DNA of 64,000 nt from Asterella californica (taxonomy: Eukaryota > Streptophyta > Marchantiopsida > Marchantiales > Aytoniaceae): NCBI GenBank assembly GCA_036924285.1, contig JAYKYS010000004.1:1612001-1676000 (forward strand), given 5' to 3'. How positions within the stretch are numbered: position 1 is the stretch's first letter; each line of letters opens with the position of its first letter. The notes under the pieces were generated by a model. That model worked only from the letters and a program-made list of their open reading frames with translations. It was not told where the DNA came from and made no database searches. Below, in pieces: positions 2,913 to 41,150 of this stretch. The position numbers and the translations under genes were made by a program.

Positions 2913-4400
2913 AACTCCATAGACACGTCTATCATCTCTTGATGAACCACCTCCGTACTAGAGATAACTACATCCTTGCTCTCATCGAGTGTGGTCGCTA
3001 ACTGGAACACTGGAACAAGCTGACTCCCAATTCTCTCATATCCGTGACTGAAAATAGTGAGGCTCGCAGAACTGCTATAGCCACCCCCAACATCAGATTT
3101 GACATCATACCCACAGACGTCGAGGGTTGACTCCCATCACCCTCACTATTGGATGTCGATATCTCCAACTCCACTACATCATCAATACACTATTTAAGAA
3201 CCATAGACATGGTCCTCAACACCTCTGATAACGTGAATGACTGAGAAAGTATGACCTGTCTATCAGTCTCTCCGCGTTGTGGATCCAACCCCACCAACAC
3301 ACCTCAAGCTCAAAGGCACATACTGCATCTCGAGTCACTGTCACATATGTCTCAATTTGTGCCACATCAGTCATGAACTTGAAGTCAACTCCTTCTCCTC
3401 TTTCTCCTCTTTGAAGCCTCCGTTCTCGAACCAGATCTCCGCTTAATCATAGCCATACTAGCTATCCTCTACTCCAATTGCTCAATTTGAACAACCATAC
3501 TCGCATTTGACATCATAGAGGACGGTGGACCGACTGGTCCTCTCTCGAGTGCTAGATCTCTACCTTCAGCTCGACCACCACGGCCTCTTTGAGCTCCTTC
3601 GCCTCGTCCACGATCAGCCTTTTCTTGCCATAGCTCGGGGGTGGAGATCAAAACAACGGTCACTACTGTGATCTAATCGTCCGTAATGTTCGCACTACCT
3701 AGGCACCGCTTGAGACGTCCCAAACATAACATAACCACATGTTCTTTGTGGGTAGTCCTTCTGTTGATGAAGACCATCACACGTCCAGCAAGGACCCGCT
3801 TGCTGCTAACTAGAGAAAGACGGCATGGGCTTCTGTCCACTAGGTCCTCCAATACCTCTTTGAGATCGTGACTAGTCAGCATGATCTCTACTACCACCAT
3901 CACGTTCTTGCGTAGCATGTGATCCTCGAGAAGAGACTGTCGTCTCATGTGGTACCTTCATAATGAATCCATCAGTCACCATTCTCTCCTCTTTGGTTTG
4001 GCTGAGCTCAATCCGCCAGCCAAACCGAAGACAACCGCCAATGTCGGAGCGGTGTCTCTAAGAAGAGTCGCATCTCTAACTCTCCTACGTAGCTCTCGGT
4101 CCAGTATCTCATATTAGAACTAGACTGCCTATACTTTCGTCATCCCTTGGGTAATGCGGATCAACCGCCTTATGCGAGTAAACGTCTCACGTAGGCTCTC
4201 TCTAGTCTTCCGTTGGAACTCTTGCAGACTCCTCAATTTGTCGGTCCGCACACCCTGATATTTTTTCCTCAAACACTGAAAGAACTGAACCACAGGATTA
4301 AACCCTGGTGGTATCTCACTCATACTACCACCTGCTCCACTACTATTGGACACACCGCTTGTAGTAGATATTCAGTGAATCCTCGTGTCAATCACGAACA
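2913..4400 (-). pseudogene. gag remnant of truncated gypsy element
   Basis: Capsid-type Gag remnant. The clearest block is 4,353-4,129 (minus), which reads MSEIPPGFNPVVQFFQCL and continues through LRSLQEFQRKTRESLRETFT; the same block with one internal stop occurs at 34,408-34,610. Further downstream remnants at 3,948-3,469 are in shifted frames. Gag would form the cytoplasmic virus-like particle. Frameshifts, stops and the truncated end mean this copy cannot encode a working product. Confidence 0.7.
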
Positions 4401-5086
4401 CTAAGCTCTAACCATAGTGTCGAAACTCCGTCATCACACGTGACCCCAACCTGCATAACTCGGACTATCTCCTACTAGGACGGTCAAGATAAGAGTAACA
4501 TGTACATGTCATCATCACATGTAGTCTCTCATGGCTTGTTGATCGCAAGTCCAACCTCACCGTGAGAGAAATAGAAATAATCTGACTGGTCCGCAATTCC
4601 AACCTCACTACTAATAGCACACTGGAGTGAACTCACTCCGGAAATCAAACGCGAACACAAGCAAACACGGCACACAAACAGAAAGCATAATATGGAGGAG
4701 TTCCAACCACAAGAAGTCCAAAAGATAACCCTCCACACTCAAACATGCACAAAAAATAAACCTAATTTCACTCGACTGACGCCTCCTCTTCGATGATCAC
4801 ATGCACAATATATGACCACCAACTGTTGTAACATGTACCTAAGATCACTGACTAGGTGTCCACACCTCTAGTAGCTCCAAAAATCTCTACGTGATAGCTC
4901 ACCCAAGACAACTGCCACCAACTACATCCATACGCGTCTCTACGATATAGACAAACACTACTACAACGACAGGTTCCTCTTAGTACTATGAGGTCGCCCT
5001 ACCACTCCTCTAGGAACGTGCAAAAAGGTCTCTTACTATCTTAAACAAATCCATAAATACTTGCACGCATCTCTATAAGACACCAA

Positions 5087-5175
5087 GAGCTATTGGTCTA
5101 GTGGTAAAGCCAAAGCTAAGAGTTAGTAGTTAAGCACATTCTTCATGAATAGTGTTGGGTTGGGTGACCTGGTTT
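5087..5175 (+). other. 5S rRNA-like and tRNA A-box-like segment inside gypsy leader/LTR
   Basis: Positions 5,128-5,170 resemble the internal promoter of plant 5S rRNA genes: AGTTAAGC (box A start), then at nearly the 5S spacing GAATAGTGTTGGGTTGGGTGACC, which matches the 5S box C region at about 18 of 23 positions. Just upstream, 5,092-5,107 has TTGGTCTAGTGGTAAA, close to the A box of plant tRNA-Gly. A TTTT run, a possible Pol III stop, follows at 5,173. The segment lies on the strand opposite to gag. It is conserved in the second family member at 33,030-33,112 (minus). Cassandra TRIM elements of plants are known to carry 5S-like sequence in their LTRs; whether this one is transcribed is unknown. 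Confidence 0.55.
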
Positions 5176-6153
5176 TACTCACTCTCACACTACTGAAATT
5201 GGACTTAGTTCACACTCGGGCTCGGGCTCCACCTCCATCCTCTGCACTCACGTATCTCTGCTCCTCGAAGCTTCTAAATGCCCCGTAACACTCTCCGCTT
5301 GAAATAGAGTAGAAACTCGGGCCAAACTACAGAAGAAAGAAGTGCAAGAAGAAAACATCCCAAACAGCAACTCCAAATGGTCCAAATTTCGACTCCAAAT
5401 GGTCAGAATCTGTCAAATGTGCACTCGCAGGCGAGTTTACGTCAGATTTTGACCACCGCAACCTTCTTTTTCTTATAACTCCTTCGATCCTTCACCAAAT
5501 CAGGTGATTTTTTATGCGTTTTTATGCGTTTCTCAGTGCGCACCTACTGCACTCCTCACCAACAGAAATTGCTGACCCACGTCTATCCGACATCCACCGA
5601 CGTACTTATGTATACCTCAAATTGATCCCAAAACTTGTCACGGGAAATTTCAGTAGCGCTTCCGCACTACCTCATCACAAACTCGACCAAGAACAGATCC
5701 AAACACTACTAATCCTCCCAGCAATCAACCACATGATAAAAAAACAACTTCGCGCACGCACGCATCCGCAAATCGAAGGTGTCAATGATCTGCCCACTCC
5801 GGAGATATCATCGGCAGAAATCCTTGACCTGAAAGCTCTCAATCAGACCTTGCGAATTCAGTTCTTCAAGTATTAAATGATATGTACTCGCTCCACCATG
5901 CCAATGGGCACTAAACAACCACTAAAGTCGAGCCAAATCCACTCTATGCATCAAAGAATCCAGATTGCGTTCACCAAGACTATCCACCATAGCCAGGAGC
6001 TTGAAGACTCAACTCGAAGAACTAAAGCCTACAAGCCCTACCTGCGAAGTATACCCTTAGTGAGGCTAGTCCAAGAACCCACCCGAACGGCTCTAGCGGG
6101 ACTAGCCACTACGCACTCGACCAACCTAGCCGAGGTGCTAAACTGATGGGACA

Positions 6154-31500: not shown

Positions 31501-31984
31501 GCACAGACAATTCACATTTGTCGTCCTCGAAAACTTATGCACTATGTGGACTGTAAAGTAGCGTGCTCGCCCATGAGGTTGGAAGAAAAAGATGTTATCG
31601 ATATCTTTCATGCAAACGGATTCAGACCTTATTATAACTTTCCATAGTGAATCTGAGCGCGTATGTTGAATATCAGCACCAGTTAACCACTTACAAGAGA
31701 GAGTGTACTTTCTTGATTTTATCATGGCGCGTAAGCATTCCTCAATGTCGCACCCAAGGGATGACAGCTCTGGTACTTATTGCAAAGCACGCTAAAGGAC
31801 ATTATTAGCATTCAATTCTTCTCTGTTTTTTTACGTCTGCAGCTCTGAAGAGAGTAAACAGCTCCTCACCATCCCGGAGCACATCATATAATTTTCAAAC
31901 AACTTTGATGATGAATCTCAGACTTATCTTTCATACAATAGCCAAGCATCCCCATGAATGTATGCAAATTTATGTTATTCAAGT
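28579..31984. other. 3' flank of bZIP gene and intergenic DNA
   Basis: Includes the 3' UTR of the bZIP gene, whose end I cannot fix. An 18-bp direct repeat, CTGCAGTTGTAGTTCGCA, occurs at 30,111-30,128 and 30,179-30,196. A tandem motif of the type ATTTCTCTGA...TCCATGTCCAACA repeats at about 30,920-30,990. A 125-aa frame at 31,184-31,561 (+) has no recognised motif and is not called as a gene. Confidence 0.5.
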
Positions 31985-33050
31985 TGTCATGTCAGTTTAA
32001 CACCTCAGCTAGGTTTGGTCGAGTGCGGAGTGGCTAATCTCGATAGGGCCATTAGTGCCGTTAGGACGAGTTCTTGAGATAAGGGTATATTTCACAGATA
32101 AGGCTTGGAGACTTTAGTTTTGCGAGTTGAGCCTTCAAGCTCCTGGCTATGGTGGATAGTCTTGGTGAGCGTAATCTGGATCCTTTGATGCACAGAGTGG
32201 AGTTGGCTCAACTTTAATGTTTGTCTAGTGCCGGTTGGCATGATGAAGTGAGTAAATATCATTTATTGAAGAACTAAATTCGCGAGGTCGGATTGAGAGC
32301 TTTCAGGTCACGGATTTCTGCCAGTGGTATCTTCGGAGTTTACAGATCTTTGATATCTTTGATTTACGAGTGCGAGTGTGCACGGAGTGGTTCTTTTTGA
32401 TCATGTGGTTGATCGCTGTGCGGATTAGTAGTGTTTGGATTTGTTCTTGGTCGAATTTGTGGTGAGATAGTGCAGAAATGCTAGTAAATTTCCCGTGACA
32501 AGTTTTTGTGATCAATTTGAGATCGGCAAAAGTGCGTCAATGAACATCGGGTAGGAGTGGGTCAGCAATTTTTGGTGCTGAAGAGTGCAATAGGTGTGCG
32601 CTGAGAAGACGATTTCAACGCAAAAGAAATCATCCGATTTGGTGAAGGATCGAAGAAAAGAAGGTCACGAATGATCAAAAATCTGACGTAATCCTACCTA
32701 CGAGTGTCAATTTGGTAGATTTTGACCTTGTGGAGTGTGCTTCCGATCTCTGAAGTTGCTGTTTTGGAGTGTTTTCTTCTTGCGCGTCCATCTTGTGTAG
32801 TTTGGTCCGAATCCCTACTCTACTCCAAGCGGAGAGTGAGCGGGAGTGTTGCGGTGTTAGGAGGCGTTTAGAGACTTAGAGGCTTAGAAGCTTCGAGGAG
32901 CAGAGGTGCGTGAGAGCGGACTGCGAGAGTGCAGAGACAGAGGTGGAGCTTGAGCTCGAACCAACAAGTCAATTTGTTGGCGTGCATGAGCTATGTCCAA
33001 TTTCAATGGTGTGGGAGTGAGTAAAATCAGGTCAGCCATCCCAACACTAT
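31985..33050 (+). repeat. left LTR and leader of the gypsy element (LTR right edge not defined)
   Basis: The first 286 bp (31,985-32,270) recur as the partial right LTR at 40,749-41,034, and the whole block is mirrored in the truncated copy at about 5,150-6,153. Because the right LTR is cut short, the boundary between LTR and untranslated leader cannot be placed. No clear tRNA-Met primer-binding site was seen. Confidence 0.65.
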
Positions 33051-33112
33051 TCCTGAAGACTGTGCTTAGCTACTAGCTCTTAGCTTTGGCTTTACCACTA
33101 GACCAATAGCTC
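33030..33112 (-). other. 5S rRNA-like and tRNA A-box-like segment, second copy
   Basis: Reverse complement of this segment reads GGTCTAGTGGTAAAGCC, then GCTAAGCACAGTC, then GAATAGTGTTGGGATGGCTGACC. The last block matches the 5S box C region GGATGGGTGACC more closely on one side than the 5,128-5,170 copy does. Orientation is opposite to the retroelement genes, as in the other copy. Confidence 0.5.
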
Positions 33113-34011
33113 TTGGTGTCTTCTAGAGATACGTGCAAGTACTTATGGACTTGTTTAAGGTAGTAGGAGATCTTTTAGCACGTTCATAGAGGAGGAGTAG
33201 GACGACCTCATAATACTAGAGGGAAGCCGTCATTGTGGTAGTGTTTGTCTATACCGTAGAGACGTATATGGAGATAGTTGGTGACAATTGTCTTGGGTGA
33301 GCTAGTAGAGCTATCACATAGATACTTTTGGAGCTACTAGAGTTGTGGATATCTAGTTAGTGAACTTAGGTACATGTTGACAGTTGGTAGTCATATATTG
33401 TGTATGTGACCACCGAAGAGAAGTCGTCAATCTGGATGAGACTGGATTTATCTTTTGTGCATGTTTGAGTGTGGAAGGTTATCGTTTGGATTTCTTGTGG
33501 TTAGAACCCCTCCATATTATGCTTCTTGTTTGTGCGTCGTGTTTGCTTGTGTTGGCACTTGATTTTCTGAGTGAGTTCACTCCAGTGTGATGTCGATAGT
33601 GAGACTAGAGTTGCGGACCAATCAGACTATCTTTGTTTCTCTCACGGTGAGGTTGGACTTGCGCTCAACAGACAGTGAGAGGCTGCATGTGATGATGGCA
33701 AGTACAAGTTATCTTTATCTTGACCGTCCTAGTAAGAGATAGATGAGCTCAGTAGAAGCGAGGTTAGGCAGGTTGGCATCACGTGCGGTGACGAGGTTTC
33801 GACGCTCTGGTTAGAGCTTAATGTTTGCGGTTGACACGGGGGTTGTCACCACGGAGGTTCCAGTGGAGATTTAGCTGCAATAAGCAGTGGGTTCACATAG
33901 AGTGGTGTGAAGTACCAACCAGTAGCATCGGTCTCATCAGCGGAGGACATTGAGTCAGACAGAGACGTGGTTGGAGATACATATAGTATCATCACACCGT
34001 TGTTGTAGGAC

Positions 34012-35529
34012 ATGGACGAGATCTATGGGACCATGAAGAGACCTCGACGATACTCGAGTACGGTAGGTATCATTGAGCTAGATGACTGCATCCAGGAGTT
34101 CGATAGTTGGTGAGATCTGCAGCAGATGCGGAACCCACAGTTGTTTACACTCTTCATGACTTGGAAGAGTTTGTTCTAACACTTGGAGAGACCGCCGATA
34201 GACGATTATCATGAGTTCAAGCGAGACTACAACGTGGAGATTGAGTTGTGGAGATAACTTTGATCTCCCAACTACGTTTTTATCACTCTTGGTGCAGTTT
34301 CGAGAGGCGTAGCACTTACGAGTTCAGGTGCCAGTAATAGTGGTACATCCACGAGTGATGGAGTATCTACTACTAGCGGTGCATCCACTAGTAGTGAAGC
34401 AGGTGGTAGTATGAGCGAGATACCACTAGGATTTAACCTTGTGGTTCAGTTCTTCCAGTGTTTGAGGAAGAACTATCAAAGTGTGCAGATCGACAAGTTG
34501 AGGAGTCTGCAAGAGTTCTAACGGAAGACTGGAGAGAGCTTACACGAAGCGTTTACTCGCATGAGGCGGTTGATCAGCATTACCCAAGGGGTGATGGAAG
34601 CACAAGCAGTCCAATTCTGATATGGGATACTAGATCGAAAGTTGCGTAGGAGAGTCAGAGATGCGACTCTCCTTAGAGACACCGCTCTGAAGTTGACAGT
34701 TGTCTTTGGTCTGGTTGAGCGGATTGAGCTCAACATGGTGGAGGAGAGGGTGGTGACAGTTGGATTCAGCAGGGAGACACCACATGGAGCGACCATCTCT
34801 TCTCAAGGATTACAAGTTACGCAACAACGTGGTGGTGGTGGTGATGATGATAAAGATCGTGCTGAACAATCACGATCTTAGGGAGGTGTTGGATGACCTA
34901 GTGAGCAGAATCCCATGCCGTCCTTCTCTAGTCAGCAGCAAGCGGATCCTTGTTGGACTTCATAGCTGGTGTGGCGTAGATTGAGGCATCTGCGGCAGTG
35001 ACTCGAGGTGCAGTCGGTGGAGTTGGATCTACAACGCGGAGAGACTGATAGATAGACCAGACTTCCTCAGTCGTTCACGCTATTGGAGACGTTGAGGATC
35101 ACGTCTATGGTTCCTAAACGGCCTATCGATGATGTAGTGGAGTTGGAGACATCAACATCCAAGAGTGTGGGTGATGCGAGTCAATCCTCGACGTCTGTGG
35201 ATGCGCTGTCAAACCCAATGTGGAGGGCAGCTACAGCAATTCTACGAGCCTTACTATTTTCAGTCACGCATATGAAGACATTGGGAGTAAGCTTGACTCC
35301 AGTGTTCCAGTTGGCGGCCACACTTAGTGAGAACAAGGATGTAGTTACCTCTAGTGTTGAGGTGGTGCATCGAGAGGCAGTACATGTGTCAATGGAGTCG
35401 AGGATCAAGACGGCTATCGGTGATACTTGGCAAGCGGCGACTGCAAGGTTAGATGAGTTACCAGCTAGACCGGCGATTGACCTTGTTGTGTTTGGCACCA
35501 AGTGTGATGTTGTTGGACAACAGAAGTGA
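34012..35529 (+). pseudogene. gag of the methyltransferase-bearing gypsy element (broken)
   Basis: Capsid polyprotein that would assemble the virus-like particle. The first ATG considered is at 34,012 (MDEIYGTMKRPRR). The capsid-like block at 34,408-34,610 reads MSEIPLGFNLVVQFFQCL and then LRSLQEF followed by a stop, against an open frame at the same place in the truncated sister copy. A Ser/Gly/Thr-rich linker precedes it (34,320-34,405). A degraded zinc-knuckle-like stretch lies near 34,965-35,000. The last 148-aa frame (35,083-35,529) continues in the same phase into the protease region. Confidence 0.7.
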
Positions 35530-35535
35530 GATCTT

Positions 35536-35900
35536 TTGTTTCGTGGCACCTTCAGAGAAGGTGTATCGACCGCAGAAGTCTTGTTAGACTCTGAAGCCCA
35601 ACCGTTGATGTTGAGAAAAGCGACGTACATCAATTTGGGTTTGAAGAAGTCCGAGGTGGAGAGATGTCCATTCCAACTATAGACATCTCTAGGAGGGATC
35701 AGAGAATACATCTCTACACATGACACGCGAGATGTTGATGATGAGAGTTCGACGAGATCATCTCACACATGACTCCATGGTGAAGATCAAAGCCACTGTT
35801 ACGGCCACGGAGTCTTATAATGTATTAGTTGGAGGTGCTGTGTTATACCTTATGGGGTTCGTGATCGACTATTGGATGGAGACATCATCTTATAGATCAA
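35536..35900 (+). pseudogene. retropepsin (aspartic protease) remnant
   Basis: Would process Gag-Pol. The active-site block reads VLLDSEAQPLML (35,578-35,613). Asp at 35,587 aligns with the catalytic Asp of retropepsins, but the usual D-S/T-G is DSE here, so the Gly is lost. A second block, SYNVLVGGAVLYLMGF at about 35,812-35,859, fits the C-terminal half of the fold. Stops at about 35,681 and 35,954 and a frameshift separate them. Confidence 0.6.
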
Positions 35901-36142
35901 GTTGGAAGTCCGATGAGAGACTAGTGAGCCGCTTATTAATGCTGTTCAGTGCTTAGAGTCTATACCAAGAACGATGACATCCATTGCAAGATTCAGTTCA
36001 GTCATCACTTGGCTGAACTAAACTGATGACTGAATTGTCATCGGAGGATACTACGGTCTTTGAAGAGGTGGATGACATGTCTAGCATGACTACAGTAGTA
36101 CCATCTGCCTAGGATGTTCCACTTTGGAGTTCAAGCGGAGAG

Positions 36143-37243
36143 TTGCAGCAGTATGCTGATCGGTTGGTGCAGCAGGTTCAGAGTGAAGTCTTTGTATCAT
36201 CAATAGAGGAACAAAAGGTTGTTCCTGCTACTGGCCTTATGATCTTATCAACGTTAGATACGACTCTCATTGTGTGGCAATATCCGGAGGAAAGTGTATG
36301 TGTGCTGGAGCTGTTTGGAGAGATCAGCACAGGTTTGGCTGCGGTATTGCAGGCATGCATAAGAATACAACGATACTTGTATATGGAGAGAGATGAGATT
36401 ACGAGACACATCTCATTGCATCATGTGCCACTCTTGGTGCAGAGATGTCATGAGTTGTTGTCCATATCAACTGTCAGAGGATATCAGCAAGCATTATCAT
36501 CGGATATTTTATTGCTAGAGGTGCATGATCTCACGATGATTGACACCAGTCGCGTGGTTATAGCCGGGTGGTCATGTCAGGATCACACGCGTGTTGGCAG
36601 AGGTCAGGGTTTACATGATCATGTGGCAATCTAATATGTTTTGAGAGATGTTGCGGATGTTGTGACATCTCTAGATGCATCAGATGGATTCTCCAACGTA
36701 CATCTTGGAGAACGTTCCTTTGTTGGATGATGCTCGTACATAGCAGATGACGAGTGTGACCAAGTGCGGTGTTGGGTTGATCCGGCAGTGTGTTGGATGC
36801 AGCGAGAGTGGGATCTCGTGCATATTGTCTACGGGTTGTGGTGGACAAACTTGTTATCGAAGGAGGTGCTCAAGCACGCACACGATGCAATGAGACAACC
36901 GGAGCACCTCACAGTTGATGACATCTTGGATGCAAGGCGATGATCTCAAGTAGTGAGAGTCGTCGATAAGTCACTCATGGCAGTGATGAACCTAGTAAGA
37001 CGACCTAGGACATCGTTGCTCACGTTGGTGAGCTTTTCAGCGTCACATGCTTACAGAGACGGAGGACCTGGGCTTGTGTGGGATGCTCGATTACTGTAGT
37101 TGGTAGAGCTTAATGCCGATGAGAGAGAGAACGAGCGATGGGTTTCCTTACGAGTACGACAGTAGTAGCTTCGATCAGAGACTTCATGTCGTCATGTATT
37201 GGATCAAGCAATGGACTTGAATTGCTTGACGTGGATTTATTAG
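36143..37243 (+). pseudogene. cytosine-C5 DNA methyltransferase domain within a gypsy pol (broken)
   Basis: C5 methyltransferases flip a cytosine and methylate it using S-adenosylmethionine. Conserved motifs appear in the canonical order: motif I VLELFGEISTGL (36,302-36,337, SAM binding); motif IV VIAGWSCQ (around 36,557-36,580), with catalytic Cys kept but the preceding Pro changed to Ser; motif VI YILENV (to 36,716); motif VIII-like LWWTNLL (36,836-36,856); a degraded motif IX, ELNADERE then MGF (37,108-37,150); and motif X-like VLDQAMDLNCLTWIY (37,196-37,240). They lie in different frames because of indels, and a TAA at about 36,632 ends the first 163-aa frame. No other protein family has this motif series. 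The spacing of about 940 bp fits a full small domain of 310 or so residues. It sits between protease and RT, not beside the element. Confidence 0.85.
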
Positions 37244-37530
37244 CGTTGTCAAATGCGATCTACGGGTGTTACTGCTTGGACACTTCTGAGCTCTTTGCCT
37301 ACCGGGTTGGTGGAGATAAAGACTGGGGGCGAGGCTTGTGGAGTTCGTCATCCTTGGACATCATGAGATGCAGTAGGAGAGAGTATGGAGCTTGCAGCTA
37401 GGACTGCAGGAGTTTTTCGCACAGTGGATGTGGAGGTTGTTGGTGGTGACCAGAATGAAACTGCTCTAGAGGCTACAAGATAGAAGTCAAGGACTTCATC
37501 TTCTATCTCTAGCATGGTGATAGAGGACAC

Positions 37531-38500
37531 TTGAGAGCCAGAGATTGGACCCAAGTTTATAAGAGAGGAGAGACGAAGAGTTCAGAGATTCTTGAAGAGC
37601 TACATGAATTGTTTTGCCTTCAGTATGAAAGATTTGGGTACCTTGAAAAGATCATGTTCGGATCGACTTGGCTATTGACACGTCAATCTTCCGATGTCCT
37701 TATAGATATAGTGACATAGAGAGAACCTTGATCCAAAGTGGGACTCAAGACTTGTTGGAGGGTGGGTTGTTTGAGATGTCGTATGAAGAGTATGCATCTG
37801 TCACAGTTATGCTAGCAAAGAAAGATATGTATGACAATTACATGGATAGACAGATGTGTGAAAACTACTGTCCTATCAATCGACAGACGAAGTCCGATAA
37901 GTATGTCATGCCGACACGTGAGGAGATCTTTGCTGGAGTGGAGCATGTGAAGGTCTTCAGTACTTTGGACCTTCGAGTAAGGTATCATCAGTTGCCGATG
38001 AGAGAAGAAGATAAAGTCCGAGACAACATTTTGAGAAATAGACTCTCACGGCAAGGATTGTTTGTATCAGTGGCGGTTCTTACCATTTGGGTTTGAAGAA
38101 CGCCCCTGCTGAGTTCCAAAAGGTGATGGATAAGATCCTAGCAGGACTGGATTTTTTCGATGTTATATTGATGACATCTTAGTCTATAGTGCTACAATGG
38201 AGGAGCACCGAGAGACACTTACGAGATATGTTCGAGCGGTTGAGAGCTCATGGGTTGAAGTTACATCCGATGAAGGATAAAGTTCTTCCAAGAGTTGGTA
38301 TAGTATCTAGGTCATATCATCTATCTAGGTGGGTTGAGTGTTCAACAGACGAAGGTTGAGGCTATTACACGTATCTCAAGCCTCACAGATGTGAGTCGAG
38401 TTCGAGCATTTGTTAGTTTGATGAACTTCTATCGGTGATACGTGAAAGGATTTAGTGCAATTGTGAAGTCATTGACCAAGCTGATGAAGGTGGATTAGGA
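37531..38500 (+). pseudogene. reverse transcriptase domain of the gypsy element (broken)
   Basis: RNA-directed DNA polymerase. The frame 37,668-38,096 has YCPINRQTKSDKYVMPTREE (RT motif with the conserved R/Y-P-I-N), then VFSTLDLRVRYHQLPMREED, the first catalytic Asp block. After one extra T near 38,090 the frame shifts. NAPAEFQKVMDKILAGLDF follows, and the catalytic YIDD box is intact at 38,164-38,175 (RCYIDDILVYS). The order and wording fit Ty3/gypsy RT. Confidence 0.88.
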
Positions 38501-38509
38501 GTGGCAGTG

Positions 38510-38915
38510 GGAAGATGAGAGCGAGCTTTTGTAGAGCTCAAGGATATGTCGACGTCTGTTCTCATCTTGAGGAGATCTATTAAGAGGCATCTCTTCCAAC
38601 TGCACACTGATTGGAGTATGTTGAGACTTGGAGCAGTGCTGACTCAGCATGATGATGAGAAAAAGTTGTAGTGTGGGCTGTTGCACACTTCAGATGTTAT
38701 CTGTTTGAGAACCTCTTTACTCTCCTCACTGATCACCAGCCGCTCAAGTGGTTGATGAAGTCTAACAAGCTTACAGGGAAGCTTGCACGACTGGCTCTTA
38801 TCTTACATGAGTATGACTTCCAGATAGTGGATAAACTTGGAGTTGCAAATCTAGATGCCGATGGGTCGAGTCGCAACCCATGCACGAGTCAACATGATCA
38901 TATTGGAGCTCGATG
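38510..38915 (+). pseudogene. RNase H domain with central deletion
   Basis: Degrades the RNA of the RNA/DNA hybrid. LHTDWSMLRLGAVLTQ (about 38,600-38,647) is followed by a stop and a jump straight to VVWAVAHFRCYLFENLFTLL and DHQPLKWLMKSNKL (38,665-38,770). The segment that normally lies between these blocks and carries catalytic acidic residues is absent, indicating an internal deletion. The tail ANLDADGSSRNP ends the domain. Confidence 0.8.
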
Positions 38916-39159
38916 ACATGACGAGGTTGATGAGGAGATAGTACCAGGGTGCCATGCATCTACCTTTCTTTGTGTGCTGACCATGAACTCTTGTATGGAG
39001 GGTCAGATCGTATCTTTCTCAAGGCAGAGAGTAGATGGTGAGTCTCCAGATCCTGAGGGTGGAGATGATGTTCCAGACCAGTGAGATATCCATGACAATG
39101 TGAACATAATGGAGTATCTACGTACTAACGTGATGATAGAAACAGTAAGTGCCAAGGAG

Positions 39160-39860
39160 TGAGATCGAGTCCTCCAACGAACGAAGAGATTTCAGCGAGA
39201 AGGACGACATGTACTTCAAGTGTGGAATGATGAGAGAGTATGGATAGTGTCACATCCATCTCAAAGGGCACAGTTAGTACGACATGTCCATGAAGAGTTG
39301 AGACATTTTGGAGTGAAGCGACACATAACTTACTCCAAGGATAGTATTGATGACATGGTATGCACATCGATGTGCATCAGTTTGTAGCACGATGTGTAGT
39401 ATGTTATCGAATACGAGCATCGTTTAATGCTCCTATTCCACAATTACACCCTTTACCGATTATGGGGTTGAGTTATCGTTGGCGTTCAGATTTTGCAGGA
39501 TCTTTATCGTTGAATGTATGTCACCATCAATATGTGTTGGTGATGGTGGAGCACTTCTCCAAGTGGATTGAGTTGGTGGCATTATCAAACAAGGTCAGTG
39601 AAGAGACGGCGTATGCGTTCTTAGAGCGAGTGCTGAGTCATTTTGGAGCACCAGCCAAAGTGATGACGGACCAAGGTACAGAGTTTCTTGGTGAGTTTCA
39701 TGTCTTGTGTGATCAGGTGCTGACTGATCATCGAATAACATATCGAGATCATCTTAAGGCGGATGGTTTGACGGAGAGGGTAGTTTAGACGATGAAGAGA
39801 AGATTGCGCAAGTATGGCTTGCAGAAGGACCACTTGGGAGATTGGGATATGCAGTTATCA
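39160..39860 (+). pseudogene. integrase core of the gypsy element (broken)
   Basis: Would insert cDNA into the genome. The HHCC zinc finger is visible: VRHVHEELRHFG (39,276-39,312) then, in another frame, CVVCYRIRASF (39,390-39,425). The core frame 39,360-39,788 carries the catalytic triad: SDFAG, MTDQGTEFLGEF and GLTERVV, with about 35 residues between second Asp and Glu. A TAG at 39,786 follows the Glu block and the reading continues after it (KRRLRKYGLQKDHLGDWD), with further stops. Confidence 0.87.
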
Positions 39861-39989
39861 TGATTGACTATGAGCTACGGGTTTAGTCGGCAAGCGTCTT
39901 TGACTTCTTTCTCATCGTATTTTCTGTTGTATGATCAAGATCCAGATCTATCTTCGGTCATTCGTCGTGATTCTGCTGAAGTGCTGAGC

Positions 39990-40470
39990 CTTGATGACCT
40001 GAATATGTAGGTGAGAGCATTTTCTCAACGAGATGAGACATTTCAGAGAGTTATATCTATGATTTTTGAGAACCACGTTGCGATATGTGACTGTTCGAGG
40101 AGGAGGTTATCGACCATCGATTTGCAAGTTTCATCCTGATGATTATATCTATCTACAGCAGACTGCACCGACTATAACCGTAGGGTGCACTATTTTATGA
40201 GTGCGTGAGATGTTACTTTCTGGAGTACTCATGCTAGAGGGTCATGATGGTGTTGTTTGGAAGGACCATATGCGTAATTGCGTGCCATGTTATCTTTTCA
40301 ACATCGATGGTATCGTTAATCCAAGCTTAGCAGATCTGTGTGGACCTGCTAGTGGAGCAGTCCGTATGTTGGTGTGTGATGGTTGTTCGAGAGGTTGGCA
40401 CATGTCGTGTTTGACTCCATCTCTCAGTGTCATTCTTATTGGACGGTGGATTTGTCCTCGATGTATATAG
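39990..40470 (+). pseudogene. integrase C-terminal region ending in a PHD zinc finger
   Basis: PHD fingers bind histone H3 tails. After a frameshifted stretch (LDDLNM, RAFSQRDETFQRV), the frame 40,201-40,470 has a typical integrase tail block (GVLMLEGHDGVVWKDHMRNC) and then the PHD pattern: LCGPASGAVRMLVCDGCSRG, then WHMSC, then ICPRC just before the stop. This keeps seven of the eight C4-H-C3 zinc ligands; the first Cys appears lost. Chromoviral gypsy elements usually carry a chromodomain at this position; here a different chromatin-reading module occupies it. Confidence 0.78.
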
Positions 40471-40639
40471 CATGAATAGTTGATTAGATCTTTGCGTGGT
40501 ATGGATTGCATACAAGCGACTAACAATGAGACGATGTAGCACCCGGTCTCTTGATCCTTGCACCCACGAAGATGTATATCACGTAGTTGAGATATGGGAC
40601 TATCTGAAGTTAGAGGGACCTAACTGTGTTATGAAGACG

Positions 40640-41150
40640 ATTGTGATACACTTGAGTATGTGTATGACATCATCCATGTGTTATGTGTATGTGTGGTGTA
40701 TCTCAAACAGTGATGTATGTTGTGTAACAATATGTATGCACACGACAGTTACCACGTCAGTTTAGCACCTCGGCTAGGTTGACCGAGTGCGGAGCGACTA
40801 ATCCCAATAGGGCCGTTAGTGCCATTAGGACGGGTTCTTGGGATAGCCCATTAAGAATAGACTTTGCTGGTAGGGTTTGGAGGCTTTAGTTCTTCGAGTT
40901 GAGTCTTCAAGCTCTTGGATGGTGGATAATCTTGGTGAGCGGAATCTGGATTCTTTGATGTACAGAGTGGATTTGGCTCGACTTTAGTGTTTATTTAGTG
41001 TCGGTTGGCATGGTGGAGTGAGTATATGCTGTTTATTATTGTGGTACACTTGAGTATATCTATGACATCGTCCATATGTTATGTGTATGTGTGGTATATC
41101 TCTGACAGCGATGTATGTTTTGTAGCGATGTGTATGCGCACGACAAAGTT
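40640..41150. repeat. 398-bp tandem duplication at the right end of the gypsy element
   Basis: A block of about 110 bp (40,640-40,748, TACACTTGAGTATGTGTATG...) precedes the partial right LTR (40,749-41,034) and recurs right after it (41,035-41,150) at an offset of 398 bp. The second unit lacks its LTR part. This suggests template switching or unequal exchange at the 3' end. Confidence 0.75.

Follow-up and report, generated by a model that had tools for sequence, protein, structure and literature searches.

A Ty3/Gypsy-type retrotransposon family of the liverwort Asterella californica carries a predicted DNMT3-like methyltransferase on the Gag side of a conserved UAG

Analysis of a 64,000-nucleotide stretch of the Asterella californica genome (here called the window) identified a dead Ty3/Gypsy-type element that carries a cytosine-C5 DNA methyltransferase (DNMT) domain, at positions 31985 to 41145 on the plus strand, flanked by an AAGT target-site duplication (TSD). 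Comparison with copies elsewhere in the window's own 516.7-Mb assembly, within which the family was surveyed, indicates that the element is an old, dead insertion of a family that is high-copy and was recently active, and that the DNMT belongs to the Gag-side open reading frame (ORF), upstream of a conserved UAG. A first-pass annotation, made from the letters of the window, had proposed that a C5 methyltransferase sits between the protease and the reverse transcriptase (RT) of a Ty3/gypsy element; this proposal held, with a tblastn E value of 5.9e-105 for the methyltransferase and the flanking domains in order. The "rare class" to which that annotation assigned the element stands insofar as the element matches an algal class (KnitGypsy-Dnmt3); the family itself is abundant in the A. 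californica genome, with >1,100 motif sites.

The window element has TG and CA ends and was delimited by its terminal repeats, TSD, and domains; the left and right AAGT duplications (31981 to 31984 and 41146 to 41149) were read directly from the sequence. The parts of this element all lie on the plus strand. Terminal repeat A1 forms the 5′ end (31985 to 32257; blastn match at 31982 to 32257) and precedes a broken Gag region (33853 to 35196; tblastn pieces with residues 1 to 600 of ORF1 from the open copy L022), a broken retropepsin (35492 to 36079; tblastn E value of 1.4e-44, with LLDSG in an open copy), and the broken DNMT3-like domain (36275 to 37270), in which Ser takes the place of the Pro that precedes the catalytic Cys. 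The ORF1/ORF2 junction (37481 to 37489) reads TAG AAG TCA in this copy and TAG CAG TCA in open copies. Downstream lie a broken RT (37662 to 38375; tblastn pieces, E value of 6.4e-77), a broken RNase H (38385 to 38898; tblastn pieces, 1.2e-68; PF17917, 1.1e-12 on 38659 to 38916), a broken DDE integrase (39202 to 40073; tblastn, 7e-123; PF00665, 1e-11 on 39354 to 39788), and a terminal PHD finger in the integrase ORF (40309 to 40467; tblastn, 3.2e-26; PF00628, 4.7e-10 on 40201 to 40470). The 3′ end is made up of terminal repeats B1 (40640 to 40747), A2 (40750 to 41027), and B2 (41038 to 41145). A1 and A2 agree at 227 of 270 aligned positions, with 11 gap columns, and B1 is the same as B2 at 94 of 108 bases; the copy is therefore old. 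In-frame stops and frameshifts bear out the earlier statement that it is dead.

When residues 965 to 1300 of L022 ORF1 were searched against the window, a single tblastn alignment was obtained at 36275 to 37270, in frame 2, with 58% identity and 329 bits; the best score against 50 shuffles of positions 34000 to 41000 was 25.4 bits. P0001, a Marchantia protein from another genome, matched the same site (E value of 5.9e-80). Motifs I, IV, and VIII and the C-terminal VLDQAMDLNCLTWI share one frame, with in-frame stops, and ILENV sits in a different frame, so that the motif series of the first-pass annotation can be read in one frame except for ILENV. The accompanying claim that indels split the motifs was right in that the copy is broken, but the DNMT is one alignment in one frame and is less scrambled than had been suggested. 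Pfam scans of the window copy, cut into single-frame pieces, found no PF00145, and the window DNMT is therefore visible only by comparison with open relatives.

Intact copies elsewhere in the genome, for which the first-pass annotation had suggested a search, were found (L022 and others). We sampled 20 copies of 9 kb, picked for long frames. ORF1 was 1367 to 1381 amino acids long in 16 of the 20, the next ORF started right behind a single stop in 15, and a full second ORF (1038 to 1041 amino acids) was present in 10, the others being cut by stretch ends or broken. Typical open copies thus have an ORF1 of ~1370 amino acids with the order Gag-PR-DNMT and an ORF2 of 1041 amino acids with the order RT-RH-INT-PHD (PR, protease; RH, RNase H; INT, integrase). 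In L022 ORF1, a CCHC knuckle, CEHCGRPGHSSDRC, and an LLDSG protease motif can be read in the sequence; Pfam gave a weak zf-CCHC match (E value of 0.81) and no match to a protease model in this ORF, and PF13650 is listed for some relatives. L022 ORF2 contains an RT with YIDD, RNase H, an H2C2 and DDE integrase, and a C4HC3 PHD finger, with Pfam matches to PF00078, PF17917/PF17919, PF17921, PF00665, and PF00628 (6.7e-11 for the last); no chromodomain was found by Pfam in this ORF at E values up to 1. Against PDB, ORF2 matched Ty3 Gag-Pol (3e-99) and the KDM5B PHD finger (2e-12).

The DNMT of L022 ORF1 matches PF00145 at 1.2e-8, reads VLELFGG, AGWPCQ, ILENV, and WWTNL at its motifs, and contains motifs I, IV, VI, and VIII and the C-terminal LGQAMDLN stretch. 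In a phmmer search of ORF1 against PDB, the best matches were DNMT3A (1.2e-8, residues 972 to 1157) and DNMT3B (1.4e-5), followed by weaker matches to 4onj, labeled "DNA methyltransferase" (0.0055), which we take to be a tobacco DRM, to HaeIII (0.0061), to HhaI (0.09), and to DRM2 (0.097). For the relative P0003, AlphaFold2 gave a model with a mean pLDDT of 53, values mostly of 70 to 90 in the DNMT core, and poor values outside it; Foldseek aligned this model with DNMT3A at 5e-15 (TM score of up to 0.76 by target). The PDB matches, the P0003 model, and PF00145 all indicate a DNMT3-type catalytic domain, and DNMT3-like is the best class for the predicted enzyme; the first-pass annotation had left the class at the general level of a C5 enzyme, which is correct and can now be narrowed.

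The DNMT of ORF1 ends 80 amino acids upstream of the ORF1 stop, and RT lies in ORF2. With a pattern demanding a stop, the junction was TAG CAG TCA in 25 of 25 junctions found among 26 loci (L006 fell outside the pattern, and L004 and L009 are the same copy, leaving 24 distinct copies). A genome-wide search for the stop context with the codon left free gave 1379 sites at ≤2 mismatches and 0 for the reversed-pattern control; among 100 matches listed that were exact elsewhere, the free codon was TAG in 96, TAA in 2, and AAG in 2. Conservation of UAG within one genome is not proof of selection, because young copies share it by descent. TAG CAG TCA in the open copies matches the tobacco mosaic virus (TMV)-type leaky context, UAG followed by CAR YYA, which would be expected in exact form at roughly 1 in 1500 random stops if even bases are assumed. 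UAG CAR YYA has been called essential for TMV readthrough and is leaky in plants, and readthrough at the TMV site is given as 32% in transient expression and 6 to 10% in stable Arabidopsis lines (PMC2754532).

Other ORF1-type proteins end at a similar distance from the DNMT. P0001, P0002, P0003, P0006, P0007, and P0010 end 75 to 82 amino acids past it (five are from Marchantia and the sixth is P0003; P0006, P0007, and P0010 are named "partial"), and P0015 to P0028 end 85 to 130 amino acids past it. Since these related proteins end alike, the DNMT of this group lies on the Gag side of a leaky-looking stop. P0031, which has an equal domain order, is a single ORF without a stop, and UAG is therefore not universal in the PR-DNMT-RT order. 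Synonymous divergence is low just before the stop: over the final 70 or so codons of ORF1 (residues 1300 to 1370 in L022, for example), dS was 0.05 versus about 0.2 elsewhere, with no such reduction in amino-acid change, and dN/dS was 1.12 for comparisons between subfamilies and 3.25 for those inside the main one, as was also seen in sliding windows. This may perhaps reflect an RNA signal, base composition, or chance. An overlapping reading frame was rejected as the cause, since the other two frames hold several stops (five copies, inspected by eye).

Genome-wide, DNMT motif I was found at 1118 sites and motif IV at 1105 sites, with 0 matches for each reversed-pattern control; these counts include fragments and duplicated stretches, and copies diverged like that of the window may escape them. 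Thirty loci were chosen by stop context alone, of which 22 had ≥300 of 336 DNMT residues, 7 had 214 to 232, and 1 had none, although fewer than 30 are independent (L042 and L043 overlap, and L056 to L058 are near-copies). Family members lacking the DNMT segment, which would have spoken against the first-pass annotation, were thus limited to that single locus in this set. Between subfamilies (L009 and L015 versus 14 others), dN/dS was 0.18 for DNMT, 0.19 for Gag, and 0.21 for PR; among 10 ORF2 copies, it was 0.08 for RT, 0.11 for INT, and 0.15 for PHD. These ratios indicate that the DNMT is under purifying selection.

Motif IV varies at one position. Among 100 matches listed that were otherwise exact, 85 were Pro-Cys, 13 Ser-Cys (two of them in a duplicated stretch), 1 Ser-Tyr, and 1 Pro-Tyr. 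The Pro-to-Ser change that had been taken as a mark of death in the window copy is present there (~36570) but is not private to it: Ser is carried at 14 of the 100 listed sites, so that some copies may do without catalysis. Ser at this position marks either a hot spot of deamination or a DNMT-weakened lineage that has been inherited. Four loci were open on both sides, among 29 with a centered junction, and all four had Pro-Cys and TAG; three of them (L032, L034, and L040) are the already sampled long-frame copies L022, L023, and L019. Several copies begin within the DNMT, at residues 105 to 123 (L038, L050, L051, L053, and L056 to L058). We considered a DNMT-less subfamily for these truncated copies and obtained no support for it, as their upstream sequences mostly do not match one another; matches were seen within the near-identical trio L056 to L058 and over 56 bases between L051 and the trio.

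The ends of the element differ from those of an ordinary LTR element. A single unit, A1 (about 295 bp), lies at the 5′ end, and B1 (108 bp), A2, and B2 follow one another at the 3′ end, giving the layout A1-coding-B1-A2-B2. The complete 3′ arrangement was found in L013, L017, L019, L022, L023, L024, and L025, and in L027 with B2 partly matched. The 5′ unit was present in L010 and in L061 (the 5′ stretch for L022) and was cut by the stretch end in L014; in L028, an A unit adjoins a shortened ORF. The first 11 bases of A1 had no exact match in the 5′ stretches L062 and L063. Two copies had both flanks readable, and their 4-bp TSDs were ACCG (L022) and AAGT (window). In L022, A1 and A2 are identical (238/238), as are B1 and B2 (108/108), which implies a very recent insertion. 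An ordinary LTR pair was dropped as a description because the 5′ end holds A1 only; the gypsy assignment of the first-pass annotation therefore stands for the enzymes, and the repeats are split direct repeats. The B1/A2 junction (e.g., at L022 8420) reads ACGACA-GC-TGTCACG in six copies, that is, two element ends joined with two bases between them, which resembles a circle junction.

The element has the RT-RNase H-DDE integrase order of Ty3/Gypsy elements (Metaviridae), an upstream Gag with a CCHC knuckle and retropepsin (from motifs in L022 ORF1), and TG...CA ends with a short TSD, but it does not have two identical full-length LTRs. With A1 only at the 5′ end and B1-A2-B2 at the 3′ end, it is more safely described as having Gypsy-type enzymes and split direct repeats. 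It shares split repeats with DIRS elements but has a DDE integrase and a 4-bp TSD rather than a tyrosine recombinase without a TSD. Chromoviruses are Gypsy elements with a chromodomain after the integrase. The Asterella element likewise has a chromatin reader at the integrase end, but in L022 ORF2 a PHD finger replaces the chromodomain.

Relatives were identified by a protein search (58 relatives, including Marchantia polymorpha, Sphagnum fallax, Closterium, and metagenome proteins) and an alignment search (95 relatives, among them Monoraphidium and Cymbomonas), both of which scored just the candidates sharing most words. Identity was 63 to 78% for M. polymorpha (over 55 to 99% of the query), 51% for S. 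fallax, and 30% for Closterium; the nearest named element relatives are those of Marchantia. Two domain orders occur among these retrotransposon DNMTs (retro-DNMTs), PR-DNMT-RT (group A) and RT-RH-DNMT-INT (group B). Domain order was tallied for 151 rows (145 proteins, 5 copies from the A. californica genome, and the host DNMT3): 74 were RT-DNMT-INT, 9 RT-DNMT, 13 DNMT-INT, 5 DNMT-RT, 4 DNMT-RT-INT, and 1 INT-DNMT, with 32 having DNMT alone and 13 being without DNMT. Most long group B rows list PF00628; within group A, rows reaching the end (L022-type ORF2 and P0031) have the PHD finger, and P0058 lists none. A chromodomain (PF00385) and a PHD finger (PF00628) are listed together for two relatives from metagenomes, P0105 and P0115. 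P0051 is filed as a protein of a "Minisyncoccia bacterium" metagenome-assembled genome and is most likely misbinned eukaryotic DNA. A scan of IMG/VR with P0017 gave two loci, with 28% identity across part of the DNMT.

In a careful tree of 40 of 76 rows, from which the long-branched P0058 and P0047 were left out, the retro-DNMTs formed one clade (support of 100/100), apart from plant DNMT3 and from bacterial and metagenome DNMT3-like rows; the clade is long-branched, and animal DNMT3 rows are absent from the tree. The phylogeny that had been proposed as a check thus places these domains together. Members come from liverworts, Sphagnum, Closterium, chlorophytes, and metagenomes; group B was supported at 98/94 and group A at 78/28. 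A quick RT tree likewise joined groups A and B in one clade versus 10 other Gypsy rows from the same search, several of them long-branched, and the integrase tree was less clean (3 changes, minimum of 2). The best reading of these trees is one old capture, after which the DNMT would have moved within the polyprotein; horizontal spread may also have played a part. The host DNMT3 (L001) groups with that of Riccia (61% identity, 100/99). The host has other methyltransferase-like genes as well: one frame (L002) is DRM-like, with rearranged domains, and the start of PF00145 is matched at two more sites (G000:C526:5101837 and 5132592).

Among the matches listed from open-licence PMC papers, the sole detailed report of retrotransposons encoding cytosine DNMTs is PMC5890265, and the closest known system is KnitGypsy-Dnmt3 of Klebsormidium nitens. 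As described there, the two have in common Gypsy-type domains, a DNMT3-related domain, DIRS-style terminal repeats, and purifying selection on the DNMT (PMC5890265). They differ in that the DNMT of KnitGypsy-Dnmt3 lies in the Pol ORF (PMC5890265) and that of the Asterella element on the Gag side, before a leaky-type stop. The Asterella element is also from a land plant, has a PHD finger, and occurs at >1000 sites; the words "readthrough" and "PHD" are absent from the main text of PMC5890265. The K. nitens capture was described as an independent event in that lineage (de Mendoza et al. 2018, PMC5890265); no K. nitens sequence is among our tree rows, and no row is named Klebsormidium in the relatives listed, many of which are unnamed. 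The dinoflagellate elements SymbioDIRS-Dnmt3 and SymbioLINE-Dnmt are also retrotransposons with DNMTs, and SymbioDIRS has the repeat layout A-coding-B-A-B, but they belong to other classes, with a tyrosine recombinase or a LINE endonuclease where the Asterella element has a DDE integrase (PMC5890265).

Green algae and charophytes are among the groups in which retrotransposons encoding DAM or DCM are known, and these retrotransposons are stated to be absent from land plants (PMC6338049); they comprise Ty3/Gypsy and DIRS clades with DNA methylases, adenine and cytosine enzymes being mixed. As that source names green algae, our chlorophyte relatives may be partly known. DNMT3 members have also been noted in streptophyte and dinoflagellate elements of the LTR (said to be Copia) and DIRS types (PMC12344493, citing PMC5890265), and orchid Gypsy elements with an m6A RNA demethylase (PMC9289625) are a further case of a captured nucleic-acid-modifying enzyme, in which enzyme and lineage differ. 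Within the open-licence PMC papers searched, there was no report of DNMT retrotransposons in liverworts, mosses, or other land plants and none of a leaky stop or PHD finger in DNMT retrotransposons. As far as these searches show, the land-plant host, the leaky-stop placement, the PHD finger, and the depth of the lineage are apparently new.

From the gene order, UAG context, selection, and recency read in the sequences, we infer a model that adds readthrough, Gag-level DNMT, cDNA methylation, and histone-guided insertion. Most ribosomes would stop after the DNMT, so that it would be made and packaged at the level of Gag, and a minority would read through UAG to make Pol. Within the particle, the DNMT would methylate the cDNA, the PHD finger of the integrase would read histone H3 tails and steer insertion, and new copies would arrive premarked as host-like or silent DNA and be tolerated. 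On balance, we lean slightly toward the reading that this is a high-copy, recent LTR-type retrotransposon with Ty3/Gypsy enzymes, DIRS-like split repeats, and an old green-plant retro-DNMT, and that the Gag-level DNMT methylates cDNA. The placement of UAG yields a quantitative prediction, namely, that DNMT would be in excess over RT and integrase. A broader version is offered more tentatively, as a possibility that we do not favor outright: a single DNMT3-like capture by a split-repeat, PHD-bearing Gypsy lineage at or before the time of the chlorophyte-streptophyte split, with leaky-UAG, Gag-level self-methylation in land plants. If this version is true, a de novo methylase would be a major particle component, a histone reader would choose the sites at which copies carrying methylation from the outset insert, and self-silencing would let the element persist in its host in large numbers. 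The abundance and recency of a DNMT-carrying element in a liverwort, and the presence of relatives in Marchantia and Sphagnum, make the question of why a parasite would carry its host's silencing enzyme testable in a tractable plant group.

The alternatives differ in which part of this model they replace. The one that we take most seriously, though we consider it unlikely, is that ORF2 is expressed by splicing or from a subgenomic RNA, in which case UAG would be an ordinary stop and the DNMT would be linked to Gag without a fixed ratio to Pol. Predicted gene models of Marchantia (P0004, P0005, and P0009) and Sphagnum (P0032) do bridge the stop position, linking DNMT to RT in the way that splicing would; against this stand the low chance of an exact UAG CAR YYA and the retention of UAG at 96 of 100 listed sites, although shared descent of young copies applies to the latter. 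It is also conceivable, at a lower probability still, that the DNMT acts on RNA or merely binds nucleic acid in the particle and that DNA methylation is not its task. The DNMT shares an ORF with Gag and its CCHC knuckle, Ser-Cys variants exist, the KnitGypsy domain was silent in yeast, and an RNA role has been raised for the LINE type (PMC5890265), all of which fit such a role, but the best match is to DNMT3, a DNA enzyme, and open L022 ORF1 retains its catalytic motifs and LGQAMDLN stretch. The yeast result, in which the KnitGypsy-Dnmt3 domain gave no methylation, also counts against our preferred model; its authors called it inconclusive (PMC5890265).

We regard as improbable a role on host DNA, in which the DNMT would methylate the host or compete with host silencing and the element would gain from a disturbed methylome instead of from marked cDNA. 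The presence of DNMT motifs at so many sites is compatible with it, and unwanted methylation of the host by retrotransposons has been discussed for Symbiodinium (PMC5890265). The decay of the window copy argues otherwise. Compared with L022, C-to-T changes (on either strand) had occurred at 0.168 of CG, 0.220 of CHG, and 0.140 of CHH sites, versus 0.045 for A-to-G/T-to-C, and six further copies gave similar values. This footprint is suggestive of methylation in every sequence context, of the kind found in silenced plant DNA. Such non-CG-biased decay is what host silencing would leave and does not point specifically to a DNMT3 with a preference for CG, so that it speaks against the preferred model as well. 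Strongly disfavored, to the point that we give it hardly any weight, is the idea that a liverwort Gypsy element recently and separately captured the DNMT3 of its host: a host DNMT3 exists, but the retro-DNMT clade stands apart from plant DNMT3, and a topology joining group A to plant DNMT3 was rejected (p-AU of 5e-9).

The window also contains a second, shortened copy of the same family, at 3115 to 6152 on the minus strand. No tblastn match to DNMT, protease, or RT was found in it at E values up to 0.01; it consists of Gag matches at 3115 to 4371 and 5′-end-like sequence near 5641 to 6152.
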